The translations under genes were made by a program, and so were the position numbers. Positions 3,434-10,387 of a DNA stretch of 13,538 bases are shown here, one piece after another. Where the stretch lies: NCBI GenBank assembly GCA_016839405.1, contig JAEOUJ010000126.1:1-13538 (forward strand), read 5' to 3'. Source of the stretch: Candidatus Gerdarchaeota archaeon. Lineage in GTDB: Archaea > Asgardarchaeota > Heimdallarchaeia > JABLTI01. Position 1 is the first letter of the stretch; every line of letters begins with the position of its first letter. The notes beneath the pieces were generated by a model that searched no databases, was not told the origin of the DNA, and saw only the letters and a program-made list of their open reading frames with translations.

Positions 3434-3474
3434 TTAAATTAATTGGTGAGAAAAATAAAATGATTAGTAATTAA

Positions 3475-3774
3475 TTAGAAGCAGATTAGTTGCCAAACAT
3501 AACCTCCCTTCTGAATATGACCAACAATCCATCCCTTGTCTTGTAAATATCTAATTCCACGATAAACACTTTCTGCTGATGCGCATGTAATACACTCATC
3601 TTCATATTCTGGTGTAAGTGCTAATTTTACAATTTCATTTGTAGAGAGACAAATGCATTTTGAAAGAATTCTGAATACGCAAATCACTTCAATACGAACA
3701 TCACTTTCGTAGAGTTCTCTCATTTTTTGTTCTATGATGTTGGGATTTGTAGATTTTTTTAATGGTTTATCCAA
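3475..3774 (-). CDS. Small cysteine-containing winged-helix-like protein, paralog A
   Basis: 99 residues from a TTG at 3774. An in-frame ATG at 3723 would give 82 residues, almost the length of the neighbour (81), and may be the real start; no Shine-Dalgarno decides it. Over A32-A97 it aligns without gaps to paralog B, with about 25 identities, including Cys32, Cys61, Cys64 and the C-terminal KGGYxWQLI. Predicted helices followed by a strand-rich end (GWIVGHIQKGGYVWQLI) look like a small winged-helix DNA-binding fold. The CxxC (ECITC) plus the separate Cys32 could hold a metal or Fe-S centre or act as a thiol switch; this is inference. Extra Cys40, Cys42 and Cys98 are not shared. It lies 21 bases after paralog B, so probably co-transcribed. 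Confidence 0.7.
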   Translation of the reverse strand: MDKPLKKSTNPNIIEQKMRELYESDVRIEVICVFRILSKCICLSTNEIVKLALTPEYEDECITCASAESVYRGIRYLQDKGWIVGHIQKGGYVWQLICF

Positions 3775-3795
3775 TATTACACACTCAAATGAAGA

Positions 3796-4041
3796 CTATT
3801 CATTGATTATTAATTGCCACCTATATCCACCTTTCCCTAATGAGGATTTTATAAAACCATACTTTTCCATTTTTTTAACTGCTCTAAGGAACGAATCACC
3901 TGAAACACAACCAGTACATATTTCTTCAAATTCTTCTGTTGTTGCTAATTCTAAAATCCTTTTTGATGTAATGTTATTTTCTTTTCTTAGAATTTGATAG
4001 ATGCAATTCGTATCTTCGTCTTCTATTATTCTTTGATCCAT
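3796..4041 (-). CDS. Small cysteine-containing winged-helix-like protein, paralog B
   Basis: 81 residues, ATG start at 4041. It is the upstream member of a tandem pair with paralog A. Shared features in the same register: Cys13, Cys42 and Cys45 (EICTGC), the pattern ILELATTEEFEE, and the wing-like C-terminus GKGGYRWQLI. I do not recognise a named family. The arrangement helix-helix-CxxC-helix (SFLRAVKKMEKYGF) then a glycine-rich turn and a Trp strand resembles compact winged-helix regulators. An inverted repeat TACCTG-N10-CAGGTA sits immediately upstream, the place expected for autoregulation. Regulator role is inference; existence as a gene is well supported by conservation between the paralogs. 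Confidence 0.7.
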   Translation of the reverse strand: MDQRIIEDEDTNCIYQILRKENNITSKRILELATTEEFEEICTGCVSGDSFLRAVKKMEKYGFIKSSLGKGGYRWQLIINE

Positions 4042-4051
4042 TTTTAAAAAC

Positions 4052-4073
4052 TACCTGCCTTGTTTCTCAGGTA
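4052..4073. promoter_or_regulatory. Inverted repeat TACCTG-N10-CAGGTA upstream of the winged-helix pair (putative operator)
   Basis: Perfect 6-base arms at 4052-4057 and 4068-4073, starting 11 bases before the ATG of paralog B. A further ACCT at 4077-4080 makes a second inverted pair, AGGT-ATTC-ACCT. A TATA-like AGATATAAGG on the minus strand around 4081-4090 would put the transcript start close to the repeat, as for a repressor site. Confidence 0.45.
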
Positions 4074-4133
4074 TTCACCTTATATCTGTTGTTAAACAAT
4101 TAGAATAAAAATCCTACGTTTAATCACAAATTC

Positions 4134-4146
4134 ATTGATTATCAAT
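4134..4146. promoter_or_regulatory. 13-base palindrome ATTGAT-T-ATCAAT between divergent genes
   Basis: Perfect six-base arms around one T, located in the 174-base gap between the winged-helix operon and the EamA gene. In AT-rich DNA such a palindrome can arise by chance; position between divergent promoters makes a binding site possible. Confidence 0.3.
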
Positions 4147-4215
4147 AATTTTTATTATATAACTGAAGCAATTATTCAAATAGAATTATAATATTCTCGC
4201 TTTTGTGATTTATCA

Positions 4216-5208
4216 TTGGAATGGTTGGGAATACTGGAAGCATTTGGTAACATGATTTTCTCAAGTATTGCTACTGTTATATATAAATCACAAGGAAATC
4301 GTATTAAACCTGGCTTGATGCTGGTAATACAAACAACAGTTTCAGCAATTGCATTTCAAATCATTAATGCAAGTATGGGCAATTTTCGAGAAATGTTTAA
4401 AATACCAGTAAATGCTTTTATTGCTTTTGTATTTGCAGCTATTTTAGGTATTGTTATTGGTAATTTTATTTATTTAATTAGTTTAAATTTAATTGGTGTT
4501 TCTAAAGCATATCCAATAGCTATGACTTATCCATTGTTAACCTATCTTTTAGAAATAATGTTTCTAGGAGGAACTTTTAATTGGATGAAATTTTTAGGTA
4601 TAATTTCAGTTATTGTGGGAGTTATTTTTATATCAATCTCAAAAATTAATGAAAATAATAATTTAAATGAATTAAAAAATGAAATAAATGAAAAGGAAAA
4701 AGAAATTTCAGATATTGAATCAAGTGATGTTGATCATAGAAATTTCATGACTAAAATCAATACTAATAAAACTCTTCTTGGTATAATTTTAGCATTATTA
4801 ACTGCTATAACTTGGGCGTCAGGAACGACTTTAATTAAATATGCTTTAAATCAAACTGAAGTTGATATAATTCCAATAAATAGTGCTAGAATGATATTTT
4901 TAGTGCCATTTGCTTTAACACTATTTTTTATAACAAGGAAGAAAAACAATGTGGAAAAGAAAATAACAGGGAAATCAGTTTCATTAGTTGCATTAGGATC
5001 ATTATTTGGATTAGTTATAGCAAATATCGTTTATTTAATGGCACTTGATTCAGTTGGTACTTCTACAACAGCAGCTATAGCAGCTTCTGGACCTTTAATT
5101 TCTACTCCACTATCAATTTTGTTTCTAAAAGAAAAGATAGATTGGGAAATAATTAAAGGAACAATTTTAACAATTATTGGTAATATTCTTGTAATTTTAT
5201 TAGCATAA
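4216..5208 (+). CDS. EamA/DMT superfamily transporter
   Basis: 330 residues, ten predicted membrane helices in two EamA halves (about residues 2-142 and 186-330). Each half carries the family's Gly/Ala/Pro-rich late helix: SKAYPIAMTYPLL (96-108) and, in the second half, GTSTTAAIAASGPLIS. The halves are joined by a charged, Lys/Glu/Asn-rich linker (about 143-185) that looks partly coiled-coil and is longer than usual. Family members export or import metabolites such as amino acids or nucleotide precursors; the substrate is not visible. The TTG at 4216 is chosen because a stop lies upstream, the first helix begins directly after it, and GTGAT sits six bases before it. Divergent from the winged-helix pair. 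Confidence 0.85.
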   Translation: MEWLGILEAFGNMIFSSIATVIYKSQGNRIKPGLMLVIQTTVSAIAFQIINASMGNFREMFKIPVNAFIAFVFAAILGIVIGNFIYLISLNLIGVSKAYPIAMTYPLLTYLLEIMFLGGTFNWMKFLGIISVIVGVIFISISKINENNNLNELKNEINEKEKEISDIESSDVDHRNFMTKINTNKTLLGIILALLTAITWASGTTLIKYALNQTEVDIIPINSARMIFLVPFALTLFFITRKKNNVEKKITGKSVSLVALGSLFGLVIANIVYLMALDSVGTSTTAAIAASGPLISTPLSILFLKEKIDWEIIKGTILTIIGNILVILLA

Positions 5209-5930: not shown

Positions 5931-6776
5931 TTAATCAATTGTAATTGCTTGGAAATTAAAAGTAATCATTAGCAAATTAATACTAATTCTATTTCTGTAT
6001 CCAGTAGAAGTATAAATCGTAATTGGTCCAGTTCCTTTATTTAGTGTAATCTCAAAATCATCACCTGATGCAATATCTGGATTATTATCAATAAAACCAT
6101 GAATTGCGGGATTTAATTCAGCACTTGTTTTATTTATAACTAAATGATAAGTTCCAGAATTTAATCCTCGTAGTGATTCTAAAGCTGAAAAGCGCATAAC
6201 AATTACTGAGACATCAATAGTGCCATCTACACCAGTGTCTTTAATTAGTATAAATAAACGGTAATATAATTCCATATAATAAACATCTGAACTTGGTCGT
6301 TGTAAAGTGATTGTTCCTGGATCTATTTCTCCAAGCTCTGTAACAGCTGGTGGGTAATATGGGCTTCCTTTTAAAAATTCAATTATATTTCTTCGGATTA
6401 TAGGAGTCTCACTTGGAATGGTAATCCTAGCAATTCCATAATCTAAACCAGGAATTGGAAGATACATTGTTCCATTAACAAAAGCTCGGAAATTCATGCC
6501 TAAAGAACGGAATTCTAAATCTCCTGAAAATGCATCTACTTGTAATGTTCTTGAAGCGCCAATACCATCATAAAACATCGATTGAATTGCTGCGTCCATT
6601 TTTGTAAGAAATAAAGCTGACGTTGAGATTGCAGCATTCATTCTTCCTCTATCTATTGTAGGTATAATATAAACATATGTCAGTGAAATTGATGTAACCA
6701 TTATACTTGTTATTAATAATGTAGATACGATACTTGAAACACCTTTTTTATCTCGAGATATTTTTTTCAAGAGCAT
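5931..6776 (-). CDS. Type IV pilin-like secreted protein with class III signal peptide
   Basis: 281 residues from the ATG at 6776. The N-terminus is a short charged leader MLLKKISRDKKG followed by VSSIVSTLLITSIMVTSIS: the Lys-Gly/Val junction and long hydrophobic helix are the class III signal cut by archaeal prepilin peptidase (PibD/FlaK), cleavage expected after Gly12. The rest is a beta-rich, Thr/Ser-rich domain suited to the cell surface, with no Cys. It is larger than common archaeal pilins (~130-200) and may be a minor pilin, adhesin or pilin-like membrane-anchored protein. The frame extends upstream to a TTG at 6800, but GGTGA exactly five bases before the ATG argues for the ATG. It lies downstream of the ABC operon, separated by a terminator. 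Confidence 0.8.
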   Translation of the reverse strand: MLLKKISRDKKGVSSIVSTLLITSIMVTSISLTYVYIIPTIDRGRMNAAISTSALFLTKMDAAIQSMFYDGIGASRTLQVDAFSGDLEFRSLGMNFRAFVNGTMYLPIPGLDYGIARITIPSETPIIRRNIIEFLKGSPYYPPAVTELGEIDPGTITLQRPSSDVYYMELYYRLFILIKDTGVDGTIDVSVIVMRFSALESLRGLNSGTYHLVINKTSAELNPAIHGFIDNNPDIASGDDFEITLNKGTGPITIYTSTGYRNRISINLLMITFNFQAITID

Positions 6777-6781
6777 TTGTT

Positions 6782-6786
6782 TCACC
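6782..6786 (-). promoter_or_regulatory. Shine-Dalgarno GGTGA fixing the pilin-like gene start
   Basis: GGTGA followed by five bases and ATG (6776). The same GGTGA-N5-start spacing is seen for both ABC permeases. It selects the ATG over the TTG 24 bases upstream, which would place this site inside the coding region. Confidence 0.65.
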
Positions 6787-6863
6787 GACAATTGTATCAA
6801 TGGATATATTACTTATTTATCTTACTCAAAGGTTAAAATGTTTCTGTTATGGATATTGGGTAT

Positions 6864-6896: not shown

Positions 6897-7763
6897 TCAA
6901 TATTGACCAATAGTTCCTTTCTTACGGAGAATCTTTTCAATTGATGCAAATGATTTGATTCCAACAATTATTATTATAATGCTTAAACCAATTAATGCTC
7001 CTAAATATGCTAGAGTCATCCAATTTGTACCAAACATTATAGCATTTCGAAATCCTTCAATTCCATAAGTAAATGGATTCCCATAAGCAAGATATTGTAG
7101 ATATGTGGGCATTGTAACAATAGGGTAGGTTACTGGTGTAATTATTTCGATTAGTATTTGTATGAACATTACTGCTCTATAACCTTGTTTTTGCCATAAG
7201 ACAAAACCACTTAGCACCATTGCTAAACCTTGTATTAATAATATTGATACTAAAAGGAATATCAAAGCAACAATCAAATCTTTGAAAGCAAATAATCCCC
7301 AGTACCAATAAATTATGATTCCAAGTTGTAGCATTAATCCAACACTATTATGCATTATACTTTTCAATGCATTACCAAAGATTAATGACATTCTGCTAAT
7401 AGGTGTTACATATATAATTTCAAATGTTCCTGTCCATTCTTCCCGTCGAATACCGTATGCTGTGCTCCATAATGTAATATCTATGAACATATTGAATACC
7501 AATCCTAGTGATGTAAATACCCAAACATCACTTGTTCCAGCAATTTCTTGTAGAACTTCACTATATCTACCACCTATTAATGCTGAGCCATAGATTAGTT
7601 GAGGAAGTAGCCATAAGATTGGTGCTACTGCAAAGTAAAGTAGAGACATAGGATATCTAAGTTCAATTCGCCAACGTTTTTCTGCTAAAGCCCAAATAGC
7701 TCTAAGTTCATCTTTGAATTTTTGCCTTCTTGATTTTCTATTGTTTGATGTTTTGGTAGTCAT
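6897..7763 (-). CDS. ABC-2 type transporter permease (second permease of the operon)
   Basis: 288 residues from the ATG at 7763, with about 35 charged residues (Lys/Arg-rich) before the first helix and six predicted membrane segments. After the second segment it has EEWTGTFEIIYVTPISR, the amphipathic E-x(3)-GT-x(5)-PIS signature of ABC-2 permeases that couples to the ATPase; permease 1 has the matching EQHSGTLQFIWLAPISR. Together they would form a heterodimeric exporter. A longer frame starts at a GTG (7772), but that GTG is part of GGTGA, which lies five bases before the ATG and directly follows the stop of permease 1, so the ATG is preferred. Last gene of the operon, followed by a hairpin terminator. 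Cargo unknown. Confidence 0.88.
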   Translation of the reverse strand: MTTKTSNNRKSRRQKFKDELRAIWALAEKRWRIELRYPMSLLYFAVAPILWLLPQLIYGSALIGGRYSEVLQEIAGTSDVWVFTSLGLVFNMFIDITLWSTAYGIRREEWTGTFEIIYVTPISRMSLIFGNALKSIMHNSVGLMLQLGIIIYWYWGLFAFKDLIVALIFLLVSILLIQGLAMVLSGFVLWQKQGYRAVMFIQILIEIITPVTYPIVTMPTYLQYLAYGNPFTYGIEGFRNAIMFGTNWMTLAYLGALIGLSIIIIIVGIKSFASIEKILRKKGTIGQY

Positions 7764-7768
7764 TATTT

Positions 7769-7773
7769 TCACC
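7769..7773 (-). promoter_or_regulatory. Shine-Dalgarno GGTGA of permease 2, abutting the permease 1 stop
   Basis: Reads TAA-GGTGA-N5-ATG: the permease 1 stop codon is immediately followed by the ribosome site, so the two permeases are probably translationally coupled. It decides for ATG 7763. Confidence 0.7.
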
Positions 7774-8766
7774 TTAGAATGCTCCTAAATCTCCATGTTT
7801 GAGTGTTCTTTTTTCTGCCAAATGAAATATTAAATATCCACCTAGCCAAAATAACACATCGAGTCCAATTAATATACCAACCATATATAACATGCTAGTA
7901 ATTGAATCATTAGCCATGAATAATGCTCGGATAGACATTAGACCCCAGGAAAATGGAAATGCATAAGCAACCCATTTTGCCCAATTTGGCAAAACATTAG
8001 CAGGATAGCGAATAGGAGAACAAATATACAATACATTATCTACAAATTCCGTTAAAACTCCTGGTTCTTTGAACACAAGAATAATTCCTGCAAATGCAAA
8101 GCTAAATCCGTATAAACCTATAATAACCAATACTAGAACAATTAATGTTAGTATTGCATCAACAAAGGTTATTTGCCAACTAACAAAAATCGTTAGTAAA
8201 GCAAACTGACCTATGATCTCTATTAAAGACCAGATAGTACTTCCTAAAGATGCACCAATCATTAAATTGATTCTTGATATAGGTGCTAACCAGATAAATT
8301 GCAATGTTCCAGAATGTTGTTCCCATCTTAAAGCATTGCCTGCACCCCAAATTGCTGAATCCAATATATTCCACAATAGGGCACCAATAAAGATGAATTC
8401 TAAGACATTAGCTGTACCAGTTAGTCGCTCAAAGTTCTCACTTTGTAATGCTGCACCTAATAGTGCTTGTCCTTGAAAAACAAAAGGAATTAACCACATC
8501 ATAGGCATAAGTGTCCAGAATATTATTTCCCAGGGGTATCGAAGTATCATTAGAACTTCTTTCTTTGTTATTACTAAAATCGTTTGAAGAGTGTTTTTTA
8601 ATCTAAGTAACCAATTTCTAGGCTTATCATTTGTTTTGAGTTTAATATCTGGTATTTCTATTTGTTTATCAACAACACTAGTATCCACTAGTATAGCTTC
8701 TTCTTCTTCTTGTATTGATTCATAGGGCGTTTCTTGTATTTTGATTTCTTCTTTTATAGTTGTCAC
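7774..8766 (-). CDS. ABC-2 type transporter permease (first permease of the operon)
   Basis: 330 residues from a GTG at 8766. It opens with an unusual acidic, hydrophilic cytoplasmic stretch of about 65 residues (many Glu, Asp, Lys) before the membrane region, then six predicted helices with the ABC-2 coupling motif EQHSGTLQFIWLAPISR. It is a distant paralog of permease 2. The longest frame begins at a TTG (8793), but GGTGA five bases before the GTG repeats the spacing of two other genes and supports the shorter form. It is 70 bases after the ATPase stop and directly abuts permease 2. Membrane half of an exporter of the DrrB/ABC-2 class; substrate cannot be inferred. Confidence 0.87.
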   Translation of the reverse strand: MTTIKEEIKIQETPYESIQEEEEAILVDTSVVDKQIEIPDIKLKTNDKPRNWLLRLKNTLQTILVITKKEVLMILRYPWEIIFWTLMPMMWLIPFVFQGQALLGAALQSENFERLTGTANVLEFIFIGALLWNILDSAIWGAGNALRWEQHSGTLQFIWLAPISRINLMIGASLGSTIWSLIEIIGQFALLTIFVSWQITFVDAILTLIVLVLVIIGLYGFSFAFAGIILVFKEPGVLTEFVDNVLYICSPIRYPANVLPNWAKWVAYAFPFSWGLMSIRALFMANDSITSMLYMVGILIGLDVLFWLGGYLIFHLAEKRTLKHGDLGAF

Positions 8767-8771
8767 TTTTT

Positions 8772-8776
8772 TCACC
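8772..8776 (-). promoter_or_regulatory. Shine-Dalgarno GGTGA of permease 1
   Basis: GGTGA-N5-GTG. It decides for the GTG at 8766 rather than the TTG at 8793. Confidence 0.6.
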
Positions 8777-8786
8777 TTATTTGATA

Positions 8787-8809
8787 CCCTCAATCCGGAG
8801 GGGACGTCC
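8787..8809. repeat. GC-rich intercistronic hairpin and palindrome between ATPase and permease 1
   Basis: CCCTC / GAGGG (8787-8791, 8798-8802) pairs around a six-base loop and runs into a perfect GGACGTCC palindrome (8802-8809). This is strikingly GC-rich for the surroundings and lies just upstream of the permease 1 ribosome site. It could be an mRNA processing or stability element; no T-run, so not a terminator. Confidence 0.4.
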
Positions 8810-8836
8810 TGTTTTCAAATTTGTAATTCTGATATA

Positions 8837-9955
8837 CTATTCATCTAAACCATCAGCTTCATCCTCAAGTTTACGACCAGTTAATTTGAGAAAAACATCT
8901 TCAAGTGTAGCTGATTTCAAAGCAAATTCATCCACTTTGATATTTGCATTGTAAATGTATTGCAATACATCACTTGCTATATCAGAACCATTTTCAATTA
9001 CTATATCAGTAAAGTAGAACTCATCTTCCTTCTTTGAAGTGATAGTTCCAATATTAGGTAAATCCTTGAATAGTGTTTTTGGTACGGCTTGCCGCGTTTG
9101 TAGATTTAGAATGTGTTTTTGTTTCATTCCTAATTTTAGTCGCTCAGGAGTATCAAGAGCAATTATTGAACCCTTATTTATTAGAGCTATACGATCACAG
9201 AGCTCATCTAAAATTCTCATATCATGAGTACAAAGTAGAATTGTTTTACCTTGCTTTTCCTGTAGTTCTTCTTTCAAAAATTTGCGGAATTCTTTACTCG
9301 CTCGAGGATCCAATCCTCTTTCTGCTTCATCAACAAGTAATATCGGAGGGTCATGCATTAAGGCACGACAAAATGCAACTTTCATCTTTTGACCAGTGCT
9401 AAGATTTTGGACAAGCTCATCCTTTTTATCCTTGAGTTTGAATCGACCAATTAATTCTAATGCTCGTTTTTCTGCTTCCTTTTTAGTTAAGTGATAAAGC
9501 CTACCAAAAAAGACTAAATTTTCAATTGGAGTCATTTTCCAGTAAAGCGAACGTTCTCCACCAGTAACCAATCCTATTGATGAACGTACTGGTGTTGGAT
9601 TCGTTCTAACATCATGTCCATTTACTTCTATAGTTCCAGTATCTGGCAAGACTAATGTTGAGATGATTTTTGTTATAGTAGTTTTTCCAGCACCATTTGG
9701 TCCTAATAAACCAAATATTTCACCTGATTTAATATCCAATGTAACTCCATTTAATGCATGAGTATGTTTTATTCGTTTTTTAAGTAATAGTCCTTTTTTA
9801 ATCCAAATCTCAGAAATGGTGGATTCATCATCTTCACCATTAATTTCAAAGTCTTTTTGGAACACTCGAAGTCTTCTTTTTACTGACACATATTTTTTTG
9901 ATATATTTTTAATTTCAATCATTTTTCTTTCAACTTTTTTTCTTTCTTTTTTCAT
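8837..9955 (-). CDS. ABC transporter ATP-binding protein (DrrA/CcmA-like, ABC-2 exporter)
   Basis: 372 residues. Walker A GPNGAGKT (85-92), ABC signature LSTGQ (185-189), Walker B ILLVDE (205-210) with the catalytic Glu210, D-loop GLDP and the switch His244 (CTHD) are all present, so it should hydrolyse ATP. After Walker B the usual Pro-Thr is replaced (DEAERGLDP), and the Q-loop region reads TGGERSLYW, as in a subset of ABC-2 exporters. There is an insertion of about 35 residues (residues 30-65) between the first strand and ALNGV, and a C-terminal DrrA-type domain. It powers the two permeases encoded next in the operon. The ATG at 9955 has no Shine-Dalgarno; ATG 9922 (residue 12), where the domain proper begins, is an alternative. 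Confidence 0.92.
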   Translation of the reverse strand: MKKERKKVERKMIEIKNISKKYVSVKRRLRVFQKDFEINGEDDESTISEIWIKKGLLLKKRIKHTHALNGVTLDIKSGEIFGLLGPNGAGKTTITKIISTLVLPDTGTIEVNGHDVRTNPTPVRSSIGLVTGGERSLYWKMTPIENLVFFGRLYHLTKKEAEKRALELIGRFKLKDKKDELVQNLSTGQKMKVAFCRALMHDPPILLVDEAERGLDPRASKEFRKFLKEELQEKQGKTILLCTHDMRILDELCDRIALINKGSIIALDTPERLKLGMKQKHILNLQTRQAVPKTLFKDLPNIGTITSKKEDEFYFTDIVIENGSDIASDVLQYIYNANIKVDEFALKSATLEDVFLKLTGRKLEDEADGLDE

Positions 9956-9957
9956 TT

Positions 9958-10093
9958 AGCGACTTCATATCAGAAAAAAATCAAGAAAGAACCAAAATTG
10001 AAACATATCTTGATGAGAAATTTATTCTAAATTCATTCATCAAGAAAGACTGTTCAAAAACAGGAGGTTTCTTGTCCAATAAATGAAGTCGCT
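9958..10093 (-). other. Candidate structured 5' leader RNA of the ABC operon, closed by an 11-bp inverted repeat
   Basis: Read on the minus strand, AGCGACTTCAT (10083-10093) is perfectly complementary to ATGAAGTCGCT (9958-9968), which ends two bases before the first ATG of the ATPase. Inside are, properly nested: CAAGAAACC (10066-10074) against GGTT-CTT-TCTTG (9982-9993, three-base bulge); a hairpin CTGTT/AACAG (10050-10063); and a 9-bp hairpin TCTTGATGA / TCATCAAGA (10037-10045, 10008-10016) that can extend by AATTT/AAATT. The order closing stem, inner stem, two hairpins is what a multi-branch regulatory leader looks like. A relic transposable element with terminal repeats is the alternative, but no flanking target duplication is seen. 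Folding was done by eye. Confidence 0.5.
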
Positions 10094-10108
10094 GGTTTTA
10101 CGCATGCA

Positions 10109-10118
10109 TTTATATTAA
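10109..10118. promoter_or_regulatory. TATA-like element usable in both directions
   Basis: TTTATATTAA on plus, TTAATATAAA on minus. At the usual ~25-base distance, starts would fall near 10090 on minus (the edge of the ABC leader structure) and near 10140 on plus (the edge of the candidate ncRNA). A GCATGC lies directly beside it. Confidence 0.4.
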
Positions 10119-10144
10119 GCAGTAAGTAATGCAATTATCATTTG

Positions 10145-10253
10145 AAATGAAATATTGCCAACCTAACTACACTTAACTATAAAGAGTAGCATGCGCCTTC
10201 CAGGCGCGCAATATCAACCGGCATTAGAAAGCCAAGTTTTGCGATTTTCATTT
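10145..10253 (+). ncRNA. Candidate structured non-coding RNA in a GC-rich island
   Basis: In this AT-rich window, 10186-10233 has 27 G/C of 48 by hand count. Complementary segments nest cleanly: outer stem AAATGAAA/TTTCATTT (10145-10152, 10246-10253); perfect inner stem ATATTGC/GCAATAT (10152-10158, 10208-10214; A10152 can pair in only one of the two); inside it hairpin CTAC-A-CTT/AAG-A-GTAG (10167-10189) and GC hairpin GCGCCT-TCC-AGGCGC (10193-10207), which abuts the inner stem with no linker; then GGC/GCC (10220-10222, 10231-10233). A TATA-like box lies ~30 bases upstream and an oligo-T run at 10284-10289 on the plus strand, so plus is preferred. No known RNA family recognised; strand and ends are inferred. 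Confidence 0.5.
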
Positions 10254-10283
10254 TACGGGACATAACTGTACCTCAAATTCTTA

Positions 10284-10289
10284 TTTTTT
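10284..10289 (+). terminator. Oligo-T run after the candidate ncRNA
   Basis: TTTTTT within TTATTTTTTCG, with more T-rich sequence after it, about 30 bases downstream of the outer stem. Archaeal RNA polymerase often stops at such runs. Confidence 0.35.
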
Positions 10290-10387
10290 CGTGTTTGTAT
10301 TTTATTTATAATATTTTTGGTTGGAAAGCGATAAAAAAGTGAAAATTATAAAGATTTTATATTAAATTCAATGTCGTTTTTTCTTCT

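Follow-up and report, generated by a model that had tools for sequence, protein, structure and literature searches.

Toxin messages that lock themselves by pairing their two ends are the closest described systems to the RNA reported here. In the aapA mRNAs, according to the parts of PMC6733600 available to us, early hairpins are followed by a 5'-3' interaction with a far-downstream anti-Shine-Dalgarno (anti-SD) sequence, and trimming of the 3' end releases the message. Type I systems have so far been found only in Proteobacteria, Firmicutes and Tenericutes, with a cyanobacterial candidate added, and a hydrophobic peptide forming a membrane helix is the general rule for their toxins, with exceptions (PMC12390103, in excerpt). 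Archaeal small RNAs that carry translated small ORFs, and so act as dual-function RNAs, are described for Methanosarcina mazei in the sections seen of PMC11456600. Within the portion of the open-licence PMC literature that we consulted, we found no archaeal example. Ribosome-mediated attenuators and leader peptides occur before drug-efflux genes.

Asgard archaea are the archaeal lineage nearest to eukaryotes. We analyzed a stretch of 13,538 nucleotides from Candidatus Gerdarchaeota archaeon (contig JAEOUJ010000126.1; hereafter the window). Its minus strand contains a predicted structured RNA and a putative peptide that match no Rfam, Pfam or NCBIfam family. Our analysis supports the RNA as new and, on predicted folds, suggests a working mode like that of the known fold-back toxin messages.

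Layout of the locus

We compared the window with locus L001, from a Heimdallarchaeota metagenome genome, and locus L012, from genome G060. The lineage of the L001 relative belongs to the kingdom Promethearchaeati ('Asgard'). The Lrp-like gene of the window is 83% identical to its L001 homologue, and the remaining nine loci of the scan reach at most 54%; we therefore read the window as closely related to the L001 lineage. L001 and L012 are 98% identical to each other (260/265), and the three sequences amount to only two independent lineages.

On the minus strand of the window, the gene order is lrp (10837-10388), the RNA element, a DrrA-like ABC ATPase gene and two ABC-2 permease genes. The conserved span of the three-way alignment extends from a BRE/TATA-like box, AACCAAAAnnATTATAAAT, which we read against the archaeal BRE/TATA consensus, to ACCUCCU-R-UUUUU. 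Between them lie GAGGU (GGGGU in L001), a six-base spacer, an ATG-initiated ORF of 28 codons and its stop, a diverged middle and a conserved tail, pieces of which are complementary to the coding half. The features, in window coordinates, are as follows.

10304..10322, minus strand: promoter-like box, a BRE-like AACCAAAA then a TATA box ATTATAAAT, identical in the window, L001 and L012
10056..10280, minus strand: whole RNA of about 225 nt, same predicted fold in the three sequences; 5' end estimated from the distance to the TATA box, 3' end assigned to the U5 run
10270..10274, minus strand: Shine-Dalgarno (SD) GAGGU, which also supplies the 5' side of terminal helix P1; spacing to the ATG is six bases in each sequence
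10177..10263, minus strand: 28-codon ORF MSRKMKIAKLGFLMPVDIARLEGACYSL, stop TAG, with a coding signature; one copy found in genome G001
10258..10262, minus strand: P2 5' strand UGUCC, pairing with 10073-10077 at a probability of 0.94-1.0 in all three
10247..10253, minus strand: P3 5' strand AAAUGAA, pairing with 10081-10087; in the window 4/7 pairs at 0.27-0.79
10208..10242, minus strand: side hairpin P4, closed by GCAA/UUGC, kept in all three
10204..10206, minus strand: P5 5' strand CGC, pairing with 10090-10092 (0.49-0.97 in the window)
10189..10196, minus strand: P6 5' strand GCGCAUGC, within the ORF, pairing with 10100-10107 (0.99-1.0 in the window)
10108..10188, minus strand: interior arm, diverged in sequence, yet rod-folded in each
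10100..10107, minus strand: P6 3' strand GCAUGCGU, pairing with 10189-10196
10090..10092, minus strand: P5 3' strand GCG, pairing with 10204-10206
10081..10087, minus strand: P3 3' strand UUCAUUU, pairing with 10247-10253
10073..10077, minus strand: P2 3' strand GGACA, pairing with 10258-10262
10062..10068, minus strand: ACCUCCU, identical to seven bases of the 16S rRNA tail; P1 forms between its ACCUC and the SD
10056..10060, minus strand: U5 run, presumed transcription end, kept in all three; putative terminator
6897..9955, minus strand: downstream exporter genes, the DrrA-like ABC ATPase at 8837-9955 and the ABC-2 permeases at 7774-8793 and 6897-7772

A perfect 11-base inverted repeat has its arms in the 3' portion of the RNA (10083-10093) and immediately ahead of the ATPase gene (9958-9968). 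Judged by eye, it is partly kept in L001 but degraded in L012, and for the latter reason we rejected it as a second switch. Bulge-helix-bulge intron and selenocysteine readings, likewise considered by eye, were unsupported.

In L001, lrp and the element are separated by an opposite-strand gene (3469-4590) that is absent from this position in the window; by eye, its product is a repeat protein with a secretion-like N-terminus. Two minus-strand genes of the window, 3475-3774 and 3796-4041, encode adjacent small proteins that by eye are apparent tandem copies, with tails like ...GKGGYRWQL and ...QKGGYVWQL and a CxxC or CxS motif upstream of the tail. The protein encoded at 5931-6800, also on the minus strand, has the N-terminus KKGVSSIVSTLLIT... 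and no Pfam match. This N-terminus resembles those of archaeal pilins or archaellins.

Coding signature and shared fold

The ORF has the same length in all three sequences, and 22 of its 28 residues are identical between the window and either relative; it ends at TAG in the window and at TGA in L001 and L012. We tested for coding by placing the observed base changes at random on bases of the same kind in 20000 trials, a model that leaves pairing constraints outside. The BLOSUM score against either relative was reached in a fraction of 5e-5 of the trials, and the residue identity in 0.0018 (L001) and 0.0008 (L012). Taken by halves, codons 2-16 gave P values of 0.0016 and 0.0005, and the second half only 0.033 and 0.042, for L001 and L012, respectively. 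The remaining five frames contain stops, so that one of six is open. Peptide identity is 79%, close to the 82% of the ATPase and the 81% of Lrp.

SD 5-mers precede 17/95 genes in the window and eight G001 stretches, compared with 1/95 and 0/95 at two control distances, and the 3' end of 16S rRNA in G001, GGATCACCTCCTCT, contains ACCUCCU. Since this lineage uses SDs and its 16S tail has ACCUCCU, GAGGU at six bases from the ATG is a credible ribosome-binding site. The first-pass annotation had described a non-coding RNA at 10145-10253. A conserved 28-codon reading frame with such a site, occupying the 5' half of the element, speaks against that part of the description.

The peptide matched nothing in Pfam or NCBIfam, and a large protein set yielded no candidate, a result that is weakly informative for so short a query. 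Its best 15-residue Kyte-Doolittle mean is 1.13-1.27 and its GRAVY 0.22-0.42. There is no membrane-helix stretch among the 28 residues, the net charge is +3, and amphipathicity is no better than in shuffled sequences (P 0.45-0.61).

When cut at the U run, the window, L001 and L012 each adopt the same rod in unconstrained predictions, with the 3' half paired to the coding half. The architecture consists of P1 (GAGGU/ACCUC), P2 (UGUCC/GGACR), P3 (AAAUGAA/UUCRUUU), P4, P5, P6 (GCRCAUGC/GCAUGYGY) and a long interior arm. Pairs listed for P1-P6 exceed a probability of 0.9 in 26/32 cases in the window, 32/36 in L001 and 33/36 in L012. Weaker pairing is found mainly in the window's P3, with a minimum of 0.27, in the P1 of L001, with a minimum of 0.53, and in the last pairs of P4 and P5. 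The shared-fold test used the window and L001 only, L012 being omitted as a near-copy of L001. Of 76 pairs predicted, these two share 61 to within two columns; column shuffles averaged 4.6 shared pairs, never exceeded 33, and so reached 61 in 0/400 cases. For the arm plus P6, the folding z was -3.15 in the window (3/300 shuffles equal) and -1.92 in L001 (13/300).

Folding z scores for the whole element were -3.37, -2.28 and -3.36 in the window, L001 and L012, with 1, 8 and 0 of 300 shuffles equally good. Its opposite strand scores alike (-3.51, -1.90 and -4.27, in the same order), so single-sequence energy cannot pick the strand. Comparison across sequences does tell the strand, and it is the minus strand: the window and L001 share 61/76 pairs in their minus-strand folds but 11 in their plus-strand folds.

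This comparison bears on the first-pass annotation, which had placed a possible new structured non-coding RNA in a gene-free, GC-rich island on the plus strand. The island is real: no ORF of at least 60 codons lies within 10145-10253, its G+C content is 39.4% compared with 30.3% for the window, and 3.9% of all 109-base stretches reach 39.4%. Its plus strand beats 200/200 shuffles (z -3.47), and its minus strand has a z of -1.93, with 7/200 shuffles equally good. The outer stems, the six-pair hairpin with a three-base loop and the further hairpins described there are present in the plus-strand fold of the window, but the relatives do not keep them: 33/33 pairs can form in the window, 20/33 in L001 and 21/33 in L012, with the outer stem at 6/13 in both relatives. 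The six-pair hairpin is kept at 5/6 in L001 and 6/6 in L012. The TATA-like box said to precede this stretch, CATTTATATTAAG, exists on the plus strand of the window but by eye has no counterpart in L001 or L012; the conserved promoter-like box is the one at 10304-10322 on the minus strand. What stands is a structured RNA that fits no known one (0 Rfam matches at the gathering score in the window, 0 in L001). Its strand and stems differ from those first described, its length is double, and it is probably coding. The element (about 10280-10056, minus) extends beyond 10145-10253, which covers part of its 5' half.

The window-only plus-strand box (10107-10119) and a T6 run (10284-10289) flank the ORF in antisense. 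In this one genome, an antisense RNA at 10107-10289 on the plus strand might exist.

Base changes within the helices were read, for P6 and for the count of lost pairs, after correcting a one-base register shift in the alignment. One P6 pair varies as G-C in the window, G-U in L001 and A-U in L012. P4 has one A-U to G-C double change and one pair broken in the window, and a U-A pair of the window's P3 is U-G in the relatives. The window lacks six pairs, two of them in P6 and the others in P2, P3, P4 and P5 (one each). Compensatory changes are few because L001 and L012 are so nearly identical, and with two independent lineages the pair changes fall short of formal proof of covariation.

Predicted start-site capture and competing explanations

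In RNA ending at U5, the predicted probability that the SD is unpaired is 0.03 in the window, 0.06 in L001 and 0.01 in L012, and its partner is mostly the copy of the 16S tail. P1 pairing in this RNA averages 0.95 in the window, 0.66 in L001 and 0.99 in L012; in the window fold described above, the P1 pairs are at 0.83-0.93. When the transcript was modeled as growing, the SD was still unpaired at 0.76 in the window (215 bases), 0.85 in L001 (220) and 0.85 in L012 (220); five bases further, these values drop to 0.04, 0.01 and 0.01. Exposure of the SD in shorter transcripts is mixed: window transcripts of up to 200 bases give 0.40-0.44, those of the relatives 0.17-0.83. A small 5' hairpin in the 35-base transcript partly covers the start region, leaving the AUG unpaired at 0.36, 0.12 and 0.02.

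Conservation, coding signature, shared fold and, within the predicted fold, SD capture are computed results; to these our model would add where transcription starts and ends, repression of translation, an activation step and any role of the peptide. The explanation that we prefer, with middling confidence, is a stand-alone minus-strand gene for a micropeptide mRNA that is inhibited by folding back on itself, working much as hok and aapA do. Its own TATA promoter would drive an RNA of ~225 nt ending at U5. That RNA would be both the mRNA for the 28-residue peptide and a rod, formed when its second half folds back onto the coding half. Through the terminal ACCUCCU, which repeats the 16S tail, the message would capture its own SD, so that full-length RNA would be stored in a form poorly open to ribosome initiation. 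Translation would then be confined to unfinished transcripts, or would depend on loss or alteration of the 3' end, whether through trimming, read-through, binding of a factor or a signal.

The main rival is an attenuator, over which we favor the stand-alone gene and which we regard as unlikely. Here the ORF would encode the leader peptide of a Drr-like exporter operon, and a ribosome stalled on it, for example by the exported drug, would open the rod and let transcription pass U5. The ATPase gene does lie downstream of the RNA on the same strand in 3/3 loci, behind an ORF that has a coding signature and pairs with sequence preceding a U run, but gene order around the element is kept anyway, which makes this linkage weak evidence. 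The exporter resembles DrrA/DrrB drug efflux proteins at scores below the curated cut-offs. The 3' block can also pair with the sequence that follows it (75-base stretches at -15.0, -19.2 and -17.6 kcal/mol). With 20-30 bases added past U5, P1 in L001 and L012 yields to 0.00-0.51 and SD exposure is 0.23-0.60, recovering at 60 bases; in the window, P1 stays at 0.84 or above with bases added past U5. The minimum-energy fold of the window with 27 bases past U5 is without P1-P3. The predicted lock is thus sensitive to the position of the 3' end, which counts against the preferred reading and moved our confidence slightly towards the attenuator, although this loss of P1 in the relatives would suit either a stand-alone gene or an attenuator.

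In the window, no clear TATA box for the ATPase gene was seen by eye, which would suit a leader. In L001 and L012, ATTTATAAATTT lies between the U run and the ATPase gene, with a T6 run and a separate TATA box by eye, so the ATPase gene there seems to be driven by its own promoter. The terminal helix, moreover, closes at the predicted 5' end and the U run, as in a self-contained RNA.

A structural or regulatory non-coding RNA with an incidental ORF, in which the GAGGU/ACCUC helix only mimics an SD/anti-SD pair, appears improbable to us. The strong shared fold would fit it, as would the distribution of changes between L001 and L012: 0/131 after the ORF and 3/87 inside it, two of the three altering the peptide, compared with 5/90, 3/48 and 6/142 around the RNA. 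The 0/131 is strong only against these non-coding flanks, since the ATPase gene itself changes slowly (13/1047) and two of the three ORF changes alter the peptide. Against an incidental ORF stand the coding test, the SD spacing, the equal length of the frame in three sequences and the synonymous pattern of codons 2-16. In these, 5 of the 11 codons that keep their residue differ in sequence, compared with 138/295 in the ATPase.

The coding signature would also fit a plain small-protein gene whose fold is a by-product of conserved sequence, a reading that we find very unlikely. The 3' pairing strands are conserved despite a one-base indel within that region between the window and L001, where no shared reading frame was seen, and shuffling produced at most 33 shared pairs, compared with 61. 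Furthermore, none of the eight codons with an unchanged residue in 17-25, the P5/P6 part of the ORF, shows a synonymous change (0/8), although this split at codon 16 was chosen after the helices were known and P2/P3 codons do show synonymous change. The RNA seems to be both coding and folded, and either a plain gene or a plain non-coding RNA explains the data poorly.

A plus-strand RNA with the stems originally described at 10145-10253, possibly antisense to the ORF, is scarcely credible: it has its fold in the window, an opposite strand of the element that folds as well as the minus strand, and a TATA-like box and oligo-T on its side, but its stems and its box are not shared by the relatives.

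Distribution and comparison with known systems

At a loose threshold, Rfam gave 11 matches around the locus (best E 0.27), all far below gathering scores and rejected, and a tRNA/tmRNA search found none. RNase P was rejected as an identity; G001 has an RNase P RNA elsewhere, and none was found in G060. A peptide search of 227 genomes of the phylum matched three, of which two are credible; the third, in G177, was noise (E 0.09, two internal stops). At the DNA level, 195/227 genomes matched at E <=1, led by G060 (2e-16) and G001 (3e-16), with the next at 6.5e-4. The further DNA matches, including L017 and L031, the two inspected, were dropped as short matches.

The first-pass annotation had suggested a homologue search with a covariance model. 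Ours, R1, built from the window, L001 and L012 themselves, does find matches in 2/227 genomes of the phylum, the same two as the peptide search, but they form a narrow clade with few compensatory changes. With laxer filters, R1 matched 7/38 genomes; the five others (E 0.15-0.97) and second matches in G001 and G060 were dropped as chance. One viral scan was empty. A close ATPase (E <=1e-90) is present in 2/9 genomes of the order, again the same two. The element may therefore be young, or it may have diverged beyond recognition by these searches, in which weak matches can be lost. A pattern of SD, ATG, ~190 bases and ACCTCC matched 95 times in 42 of 58 class genomes, compared with 136 matches for its reversed control; as the control is commoner, we claim no wider class.

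Two near-identical copies of GAGGT...ATG...ACCTCC with this spacing occur at G061:C74:20124-20327 and G061:C86:2922-3125, with a stop three codons after the ATG.

ORFs of 28 residues fall below the usual limits of gene callers. Annotation misses the element twice, since its ORF is under those limits and no Rfam model matches its RNA.

Rfam families such as archaeal RNase P are likewise stable archaeal RNAs, from which this element is set apart by the absence of a match at gathering scores. It shares with the M. mazei RNAs a dual function, if our reading is correct, but SD capture by a copy of the 16S tail is not described in the parts of PMC11456600 available to us. Attenuators and leader peptides before drug-efflux genes resemble it in that a structured RNA with a short ORF precedes an ABC exporter gene, and differ from it in that its ends are self-contained and a separate TATA box precedes the exporter gene in 2/3 loci.

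In comparison with hok (E. coli) and aapA (Helicobacter), the present element is archaeal, it is single-copy in each of two genomes, and no conserved antisense promoter was seen for it, the plus-strand TATA-like motif being confined to the window (by eye). Its peptide is without a membrane-helix stretch and carries a charge of +3. We do not class this peptide as a type I toxin because it lacks the usual membrane-helix feature, and antisense RNA and toxicity are only candidate features.

The likenesses to hok and aapA, as far as PMC6733600 was available to us, are a short ORF, pairing of the 5' and 3' ends that locks the full-length mRNA, capture of the SD by a distal anti-SD and an early 5' hairpin at the start region, the last three being predicted here. 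We raise, tentatively, the possibility that hok/aapA control has a convergent counterpart in archaea, with the coding half supplying one side of the inhibitory fold and the 16S-tail copy acting as the lock; the RNA may be the half that we see of a type I-like module for a toxin or signalling peptide in Asgard archaea. The codons would then be constrained by the peptide and by the helix alike. If this is true, peptide and regulatory helix are written in the same bases, and fold-back control of translation through a distant downstream anti-SD, a feature of bacterial toxin messages, has also arisen in the archaeal lineage nearest to eukaryotes.
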